Origin: Nocardioides donggukensis | Lineage (GTDB): Bacteria > Actinomycetota > Actinomycetes > Propionibacteriales > Nocardioidaceae | NCBI RefSeq assembly: GCF_014842875.1 | Contig: NZ_JACYXZ010000003.1 | Coordinates: forward strand, 1 to 64,000 | Reading direction: 5' to 3' | Length of the DNA: 64,000 nucleotides | Shown: one piece after another, positions 21,859-51,428 of the stretch | Numbering within the stretch: the stretch's first letter is position 1 | How the letters are laid out: each line of letters opens with the position of its first letter | Made by a program: the position numbers and the translations under genes | The notes under the pieces: generated by a model | Seen by the model: only the letters and a program-made list of their open reading frames with translations | Told to the model about the DNA's origin: nothing | Databases searched by the model: none

Positions 21859-22701
21859 ATGACGGCATTTCGTGAGGTCTCCGACCGGGTCTGGGTGGCC
21901 CGGCACACGTGGTTCGACCTCAACATCGCAGTGATCGCCGGCACCGAGGGGCTGCTCGTCGTCGACACCCACGCATCCGCCTCCGCGGCCCGGGCCGTGC
22001 TGGAGCAGGTCCGGACCCTGTCCCCGTTGCCAGTGGCGGCGGTGGTCAACACCCACGAGCACTTCGACCACACCTTCGGCAACGGGGTGATCGGGGCCGG
22101 GGTCCCGGTCTACGCCCACGAGACGGCGGCCGCCAACACGGTGCCGGCGGGCGAGCGGGCCAAGCGGGCCTACGCGGCCGAGCCGGAGGACCCGCACGCC
22201 GGGGAGGTGGCCGAGACCGAGATCGTGCCCGCCGACCGGACCTTCTCCTCGGCTGTGTCCCTCGACCTCGGGGAGCGCCCCGTCGAGCTGGTCCACCCGG
22301 GCCTCGGGCACACGGCCGGGGACGTCGTCGTACGCGTGCCCGACGCCGACGTCCTGCTCGCCGGCGACCTGGTCGAGGAGTCGGCCACCCCCGGCTTCGG
22401 GCCGGACTGCCACCCGATGGAGTGGCCGCTCACGCTCGACCTGGTCAGCGCGCTGCTGACCGAGGACTCGGTGGTGGTCCCGGGGCACGGGGCGGTGGTC
22501 GACCGCGACTTCGCGCTCGAGCAGCGCGCCGCGATCGGCGGGGTCGCCGAGACCATCCGGGACCTCGCGGGCCGCGGCGTACCCGTGGACGCGGCCCTGG
22601 CCTCCGCCGAGTGGCCGTTTCCCGTCGAGGACCTCGCCGACGCCGTCCGCCGCGGCTACCAGGCCCTCCCCCGCTCCGCCCGCTCCCTCCCCCTCCTCTG
22701 A
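21859..22701 (+). CDS. MBL-fold metallo-hydrolase
   Basis: A 280-residue metallo-beta-lactamase-fold hydrolase. The zinc motif HEHFDH is at residues 66-71, and later ligands are in LVHPGLGHTAGDVVV, DVLLAGDLVEE and VVVPGHGAVVDRD. The fold covers thiolesterases, lactonases and glyoxalase II; the substrate is not evident. It is transcribed divergently from hrcA with a leaderless start 6 nt after TAGTCT, and only 18 bp separate its ATG from CIRCE, so heat-shock control is conceivable. Confidence 0.9.
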   Translation: MTAFREVSDRVWVARHTWFDLNIAVIAGTEGLLVVDTHASASAARAVLEQVRTLSPLPVAAVVNTHEHFDHTFGNGVIGAGVPVYAHETAAANTVPAGERAKRAYAAEPEDPHAGEVAETEIVPADRTFSSAVSLDLGERPVELVHPGLGHTAGDVVVRVPDADVLLAGDLVEESATPGFGPDCHPMEWPLTLDLVSALLTEDSVVVPGHGAVVDRDFALEQRAAIGGVAETIRDLAGRGVPVDAALASAEWPFPVEDLADAVRRGYQALPRSARSLPLL

Positions 22702-22721: not shown

Positions 22722-22784
22722 GATAGTCCACGAAGTTCGAGTCGCCCCAGCGGTCTCTGGGGGACTCGAACTTCGTGGACTATC
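22722..22784. repeat. 22-bp perfect inverted repeat, 28-bp stem
   Basis: Bases 22722-22743 and 22763-22784 are exact reverse complements (22 bp). Six more pairs follow inside (ccccag 22745-22750 with ctgggg 22757-22762), with G22744 bulged and a 6-nt loop, cggtct. The left arm starts gatagtccacgaagttcgag. There is no T tract. It lies between the MBL gene and a small ORF whose ATG is 9 nt after the stem. It could be a terminator, a protein-binding palindrome or the remains of a small mobile palindrome. Confidence 0.9.
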
Positions 22785-22792
22785 GTCCAGGG

Positions 22793-23065
22793 ATGACGAG
22801 TGCGAGCGGGGAGCAGGAGCAGAGTAGGGAGCAGGGCGGGGACGGGGCTGCCGAGGGGATCGGCGACGACCGGCTGCCGGAGGACCTGGTGGCCGGCGAG
22901 GACAACCCGCTGGCCGAGCCGCTGCCGGAGGGCGAGTCGGCCGACCTCGGCATCCCGGAGCCCGGCGGCGAGCCGGACGGCGGCGAGGCAGGCGGCGAGG
23001 CAGGCGACACGGGCGGCGGTGCAGACAGCACCCCGGATGGCGACACGGGCGGCGAACCGGGCTGA
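22793..23065 (+). CDS. Small acidic protein of unknown function
   Basis: A 90-residue, very acidic protein without Cys, membrane helix or signal peptide. A conserved-looking core DDRLPEDLVAGEDNPLAEPL (about residues 22-41) precedes a Gly/Asp/Glu-rich tail made of GGEA and GGEP repeats. The ATG at 22793 follows the long inverted repeat directly; an upstream in-frame GTG at 22775 lies inside that repeat and is rejected. No clear ribosome binding site. Real coding is supported by base bias and the core; function unknown. Confidence 0.5.
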   Translation: MTSASGEQEQSREQGGDGAAEGIGDDRLPEDLVAGEDNPLAEPLPEGESADLGIPEPGGEPDGGEAGGEAGDTGGGADSTPDGDTGGEPG

Positions 23066-25653: not shown

Positions 25654-25688
25654 GAACGGGTGCCGGTGGCGAGCACCGGCACCCGTTC
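25654..25688 (-). terminator. 15-bp perfect hairpin
   Basis: gaacgggtgccggtg pairs perfectly with caccggcacccgttc around a 5-nt loop. It lies 10 nt past the stop of the acyl-CoA ligase gene and upstream of hemW on the minus strand. No T tract. Confidence 0.75.
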
Positions 25689-44340: not shown

Positions 44341-44700
44341 GGTTGCCCTTCGAGACGGCGCTGGCGCGCCTCCTCAGGAACCGGAGCGAGCGCCAGCCGT
44401 CCCCGGTGGTTGAGGAGCGAGCGCAGCGAGCGTCTCGAAACCACTCCCCAACCACCGACAGGCGGGCCTGGTCTTCGGTGGTTGCCCTTCGAGACGGCGC
44501 TGGCGCGCCTCCTCAGGAACCGGAGCGAGCGCCAGCGGCCCCGGTGGTTGCCCTTCGAGACGGCGCTGGCGCGCCTCCTCAGGAACCGGAGCGAGCCCGG
44601 TCCCCGGTGGTTGAGGAGCGAGCGCCAGCGAGCGTCTCGAAACCACCCCTCGACGGCACGCTGGTTTCGAGACGGGCCCTGGCGGCCCTCCTCAACCACC
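44341..44700. repeat. Palindromic repeat array B (6 units), 3' of the DUF222-HNH gene
   Basis: The gap 44202-44759 has no gene. It contains six units at about 44341, 44408, 44480, 44545, 44608 and 44663. Three are of the form ggttgcccttcgagacggcg...ctcaggaacc; two read ggttgaggagcgagcgc...tctcgaaacc in inverted orientation; and one reads ggtttcgagacgggccc...ctcaacc. All share the tcgagacg and gcgc cores of arrays A and C, so the same family flanks the HNH gene on both sides. Confidence 0.88.
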
Positions 44701-51382: not shown

Positions 51383-51428
51383 CGAGCGCCCCGGCCTCCC
51401 TGATCTCTCAGGGCGACCGGGGCGCTCG
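51383..51428. terminator. Bidirectional terminator, lysyl oxidase-like / etfA
   Basis: A 12-bp perfect stem (cgagcgccccgg / ccggggcgctcg) encloses a second 6-bp hairpin (ccctga / tcaggg). It lies between the convergent lysyl-oxidase-like gene and etfA. Confidence 0.75.

Follow-up and report, generated by a model that had tools for sequence, protein, structure and literature searches.

The hairpin at positions 22722-22784 of the window (the whole 64-kb stretch of DNA analysed here) is, on balance, best explained as a solo, non-autonomous copy of a REP-like palindrome, the cognate enzyme of which would be a DUF559-like PD-(D/E)XK (Vsr-related) nuclease encoded by a gene that is itself bracketed by the same hairpin. 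The association between hairpin and gene was directly observed: there are 16 genome copies with a fixed length of 63 nt, presence at this site is insertion-like, bracketing of the gene is family-specific, paralogues have their own hairpins, the hairpin type beside the gene matches that of the genome, and the encoded protein has a DUF559-like core. This pairing of gene and palindrome recurs in many bacteria, and suggests a kind of spreading DNA repeat that has gone unrecognised. The first-pass annotation, made from the window, had taken the hairpin to be either a recent, small mobile palindrome or a maintained structure; its interpretation is partly supported, and the principal finding, that copies of this hairpin bracket a nuclease gene, lay beyond its view.

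The 63-nt element was delimited from its sequence, its folding and its copies in the genome. Its 22-nt left arm (22722-22743, plus strand), the outer GATAGTCC of which is a genus-wide motif, is the exact complement of the 22-nt right arm (22763-22784, minus strand), and the variable, copy-specific part between them (22744-22762) consists of a bulged G at 22744, six further pairs formed by 22745-22750 with 22757-22762, and a 6-nt loop at 22751-22756. Sequence and folding thus give 22 exact pairs, the bulged G, then six more, in agreement with the 28-bp stem described in the first-pass annotation, which was also right about the AT-richer arms (50% GC vs 73% for the window) and about the missing T tract; a T run of the kind that an intrinsic terminator requires is absent on either side. 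The cgaagttcg that it called a palindrome is not strictly one, since its reverse complement is cgaacttcg, and consists of CGAA and TTCG around one central base. The minimum free energy of the hairpin is -60.4 kcal/mol compared with a mean of -31.5 (sd 3.5) for dinucleotide shuffles (z -8.2), with none of 200 shuffles folding as well, and the 20-mer of the arm has no other match in the 64-kb window and none in 100 shuffles; on these results and the permuted-flank test described below, a chance origin was rejected. The only Rfam matches were to microRNA-type hairpins, which scored 19.5-28.2 bits against gathering cut-offs of 65-96 and were rejected as being far below the gathering score. Within the arm, GTTCGAGTC (22735-22743) resembles the tRNA T-loop, which is probably a coincidence because other hairpin families lack GTTCGAGTC. 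Weaker inverted repeats occur elsewhere in the window, at 25654-25688, 44623-44684 and 51383-51428 (scores of 14-15 on our own scale).

The hairpin lies between the stop codon (22701) of a plus-strand gene (21859-22701), which from its motif would encode an MBL-fold hydrolase type of protein, and a small acidic ORF, likewise on the plus strand (22793-23065), whose ATG at 22793 follows the element after 8 nt. The genome is of a Nocardioides-like type: the best named matches of the upstream gene are in Nocardioides, at no more than 71% identity. It is carried by 62 relatives, in 54 of which it has the same downstream neighbour, presumably a DUF3097-type gene, and in none of the 62 is this hairpin present in the corresponding gap. 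Between the upstream stop codon and the first ATG there are 91 nt with the element and 28 nt once it is removed; among 21 relatives, the corresponding gap measures 9-39 nt in 18, and 87, 95 and 158 nt in the remaining three. As the site is empty in the relatives and removal of the element gives the usual short spacer, the hairpin looks inserted between the two genes. Conservation at this locus, which would have pointed to regulation, is not seen, and a locus-specific regulatory role was rejected because the site lacks the hairpin in relatives. Behind the same upstream gene, Nocardioides mangrovi has an unrelated 16-bp perfect hairpin (L032, 3949-3982).

The hairpin had been reported to occur once, which is true of the window, whereas the genome holds 16 copies. 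Allowing up to three mismatches, the arm 20-mer matched the 3.41-Mb assembly at 30 places, 16 of them forward and 14 reverse, and a reversed-pattern control gave none. These matches resolve into 16 elements, every one of them 63 nt long; in 14 both arms stay within the three-mismatch limit, and in the other two the second arm has diverged further. Most of them lie close behind a stop codon, within about 40 nt according to rough ORF calls. Dispersed copies were the sign by which the first-pass annotation had proposed to recognise a REP/MITE-like element, and its suggestion of a small mobile palindrome is borne out by the copies of equal length and by the empty locus in relatives; as with the repeats of REP/RAYT systems, these palindromes are short, intergenic and dispersed. 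None of the 16 copies shows a visible target-site duplication, which sets them apart from MITEs.

The suggestion that the element might be recent fared less well. Compared pairwise, the 16 copies differ on average by 5% in one arm, by 8% in the other and by 64% over the central 17 nt, i.e. the loops are nearly randomised and the arms are not, and this difference between loops is the counter-point to simple recent copying. Arms that are conserved beside loops that vary freely are consistent with the arms being recognised and not with plain recent copying, so that the copies are either old but maintained, or are being corrected. The same genome also has a 64-nt subfamily that ends in TAGTCC (C4:27125-27188), with similar elements in G257, G313 and G058; its loop, GACACGCCG, is conserved across species, whereas the loops of the 63-nt copies drift.

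With up to two mismatches allowed, the exact arm is missing from all 58 other genus members, and its 18-nt core matches 12 others among 294 family genomes, with a single match in each. The pattern GATAGTCC-N(35-60)-GGACTATC is present in 77 of 166 genus genomes, with as many as 41 copies per genome and a count of 0 in every control, and the copies among those listed are mostly 63 nt. In a set of 53 hairpins picked by the outer motif, the outer pairs thereby being fixed by choice, standard pairs occupy 94.3% of pair cells, double changes number 352 compared with 126 after shuffling, and the covariation score is 0.685 compared with 0.161. The stem is laid out as outer pairs 1-13, a weaker middle (14-18) and inner pairs 19-23, followed by a 17-nt loop, and its ends are fully paired (GATAGTCC/GGACTATC), with no unpaired GTAG or CGTC end tag. 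G.T pairs are rare in the stems, so that, judged from the alignment, a constraint acting on DNA fits better than one acting on RNA. In G055, three near-identical hairpins stand in a row (C1:297968, 298164 and 298358) at a spacing of about 195 nt, which resembles a tandem duplication of hairpin plus flank.

The gene that accompanies these hairpins encodes P0001, a 353-aa ORF of the same genome, which is flanked by two copies of the 63-nt hairpin 1.2 kb apart; relatives of P0001 lie between hairpins in two other genomes. There are four homologues of P0001 in its own genome at E 0.001 or better. A DUF559-positive paralogue with 41% identity (C5:177222-178532; L169, 1319-2629) stands between copies of another hairpin altogether, which is 54 nt long and has the arm AGGCTCTACGTTCTGCAGGTT. 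This 54-nt family is dispersed in about 20 places in the genome (21 forward and 18 reverse arm matches), and its 15 distinct copies differ by 1-6% in the arms and by 52% in the loop. A third, distant DUF559 homologue (C4, at about 275 kb) has on each side a hairpin of yet another type, GCCGCAATTGCGGCCG... (L171, 830-896 and 1956-2020).

A protein search that was blind to hairpins was made in 59 genus genomes, 50 of which had a match at E 1e-15 or better. It gave 93 loci, four from the same genome and 89 from others, after four short partial matches had been left out (G019:C7, G021:C1:1016812, G050:C1:14221 and G017:C1:474054). A hairpin is adjacent to the gene on at least one side at 82 of the 93 loci and on both sides at 56, and at 54 the two hairpins form a matching pair, leaving 39 loci with no matched pair; when partner flanks were permuted, the number of matched pairs averaged 4.6 and never exceeded 11. 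The proximal flanks contain 145 hairpins, compared with 4 in 182 kb of distal flank. The gene is thus bracketed by its cognate repeat, as in REP/RAYT systems. Protein identity is correlated with arm similarity (r 0.40, with none of 1000 permutations as high), which linked descent alone could give, and at least five TAGTCC-type hairpins are found in 31 of the 32 genomes with a TAGTCC-flanked gene compared with 3 of the 27 others (flank-type classes assigned by hand; Fisher p 3e-12), although the Fisher and Mantel figures are inflated because the genomes share ancestry. Which hairpin type is dispersed in a genome can be predicted from the one that flanks its gene. G009 and G017 each have 19 TAGTCC hairpins, with no gene of the TAGTCC flank type found; either the gene has been lost or one was missed (a partial G017 match is among the loci left out). 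Two hairpin pairs in G024, about 1.0-1.2 kb apart, bracket unrelated genes, and a pair in G313 (L165) has no homologue between its hairpins; these pairs were excluded from the support.

By sequence comparison, P0001 is a putative nuclease with a DUF559-like PD-(D/E)XK (Vsr-related) core. P0001 has no Pfam or NCBIfam match, and two of its homologues in the same genome pass the Pfam cut-off for DUF559 (PF04480). An alignment of 54 proteins (A3), chosen from 89 that were extracted and nearly all with bracketing hairpins, gave weak matches to DUF559 (three, at E 0.1 or better), to MTES_1575 (two), which we take to be a restriction-type family, and to DUF2726 (two). Comparison of the P0001-family profile with 26 classical DUF559 proteins gave a probability of 85.5 and an E of 5.7e-6, with D242, E253, D255, H259 and D268 aligning in register with D53, E64, D66, H70 and D79 of DUF559, i.e. 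the catalytic-type residues of the D, E-x-D-G, H, D core are present and in register. Solved structures, searched with P0001 and with the profile of A3, gave nothing useful. The bracketed gene is DUF559-like instead of encoding an HUH Y1 transposase. The same core is found in the DUF559/Vsr-like endonucleases YcjD of E. coli and VsrA of Caulobacter, compared with which the hairpin-bracketed members from Actinomycetota have about 230 extra N-terminal residues; unlike the present family, endonucleases of the YcjD/VsrA type have no tie to dispersed palindromes in the literature searched. In the sections of the sources drawn on here, YcjD is counted in the PD-(D/E)XK superfamily and a YcjD profile detected Vsr (PMC1189080), and VsrA is described as a DUF559 protein, a putative endonuclease and a proposed very-short-patch repair enzyme (PMC12907096).

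We propose that the nuclease would bind the fixed-length, fully paired stem, either as an extruded cruciform or as a single-stranded hairpin, and would cut at or near the stem base, thereby starting the copying of the unit to new places. New copies would mostly land just after stop codons, and recognition of the arms would keep these alike while the loop drifts. Solo copies would be passengers, and the genes on either side of the copy at 22722-22784 would be bystanders. The weakest step of this account is the starting of hairpin spread by the nuclease, which we infer from the association.

The alternative that survives best, unlikely as we consider it, is that the nuclease gene is itself a passenger, i.e. 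that another enzyme spreads the hairpins, which then serve the gene as preferred landing (homing) sites. Homing enzymes exist among PD-(D/E)XK nucleases, and the repeats in Pseudomonadota are often clustered on one side of the gene only, as this would allow. However, each paralogue has its own hairpin family, with the same family dispersed in that genome, and the flanks match each other at 54 of the 93 loci; a passenger with a single specificity would not predict paralogue-specific families and matched flanks, which therefore count against it. It is quite unlikely that the nuclease is instead a repair or self-limiting enzyme with the hairpins as its sites, acting in Vsr-like mismatch correction of extruded stems or being controlled in its expression by the bracketing hairpins, with dispersal achieved by other means. 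Perfectly paired arms beside drifting loops and the repair role proposed for the Caulobacter protein would fit such an enzyme, but repair of pairs preserves complementarity and not the likeness of 16 dispersed copies, and the insertion at 22722-22784 needs a mover. Very unlikely, in spite of the stable fold and the position of most copies behind stop codons, is a transcription terminator or 3'-end stabiliser under selection behind genes, with an incidental adjacency to the nuclease gene, because the T tract is missing (for which an intrinsic terminator was rejected as the main role), the site is empty in 62 relatives, fixed length and family-specific arms are unnecessary for termination, and one gene family is bracketed by matched hairpins. 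Termination may be a side effect of the hairpin.

A REP-like palindrome with a DUF559-like partner would resemble the REP/RAYT (TnpA-REP) REPtrons in several respects. As described in the sections of PMC3733652 and PMC6006769 cited here, these too have palindromes scattered between genes, often behind them, and each repeat family has a single gene that it brackets; a genome has several such families, and the repeats are species-specific. They differ in that their partner is an HUH protein rather than a DUF559/PD-(D/E)XK-like one, in that the present hairpins lack an unpaired GTAG or CGTC end tag, and in size, the present elements having long, fully paired ends and a length of 63 or 54 nt, compared with 20-40 bp for REPs. 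In the same sections, REPs are linked to HUH RAYTs and no enzyme is assigned to CGTC repeats. Like MITEs, the present elements are short inverted repeats, non-coding and dispersed, and have a longer relative that carries a gene; they differ in that the gene-bearing unit ends in a whole hairpin on each side rather than in single inverted ends. Our literature search, mostly outside subscription journals, found no earlier link of DUF559 to dispersed palindromes. HUH RAYTs are the one recognised class of partner enzyme for REP-like repeats, and if our reading is true, an unrelated nuclease family, likewise arranged as one gene per repeat, would have arrived at the same life style independently, and DUF559, a common family of unknown function, would gain a candidate role.

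A broader and more tentative possibility, to which we give somewhat less than even weight, is that DUF559/Vsr-like nucleases are the cognate mobilisers of a second, HUH-independent REP-like superfamily, comprising the 63-nt hairpins in Actinomycetota and the CCCTCTCCC triplex repeats in Pseudomonadota (where the enzyme in E. coli would be YcjD). Each nuclease would cut the extruded hairpin and in this way drive the repeat family that belongs to it. The CCCTCTCCC repeats, an intrastrand triplex motif (TM/PIT), differ from the 63-nt hairpins in sequence and size, and resemble them in being dispersed, of palindromic type and located beside DUF559 genes. In the sections of PMC4666352 cited here, their describers found no transposase or integrase remnants beside them, and the nuclease would be a candidate enzyme for widespread repeats with no mobility gene found nearby.

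In Actinomycetota, a homologue at E 1e-8 or better is present in 30 of 149 genomes, and matched hairpin pairs were found in 8 of 40 regions, one region (L325) repeating locus L295 of a separate 29-locus set; in that set, L299 and L300 have hairpin pairs as judged by eye. In Pseudomonadota, DUF559 at E 1e-8 or better is present in 26 of 120 genomes, and the 47 loci analysed are a subset of the matches (L378-L426, with L402 and L406 omitted). At 25 of these 47 loci there is a CCCTCTCCC, or its complement, no more than 400 nt from the DUF559 gene; it is present on both sides at 17, and in the distal flank at 3. The left and right flanks share a 12-mer at 33 of the 47 loci, compared with a mean of 6.8 (max 14) for permuted flanks and 13 for the distal control of the same loci. 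Almost nothing comparable was seen at 14 DUF559 loci in genomes reached via other loci, and almost no hairpins at those of Methylophilaceae, Desulfobacteraceae and Spirochaetia genomes. A search of viral contigs gave nothing useful and one of plasmids only five matches, all distant.

In E. coli K-12, ycjD was chosen for examination as a known DUF559 gene. It has a CCCTCTCCC at its own 3' end, and lies 167 nt from another repeat, entry 9 (1351204-1351239) in the table of PMC4666352. By our own arithmetic, the chance of such closeness is about 0.4% (23 sites in 4.64 Mb). At least 80% of the stretch containing ycjD and the repeat is held by 3307 of 5426 E. coli genomes.
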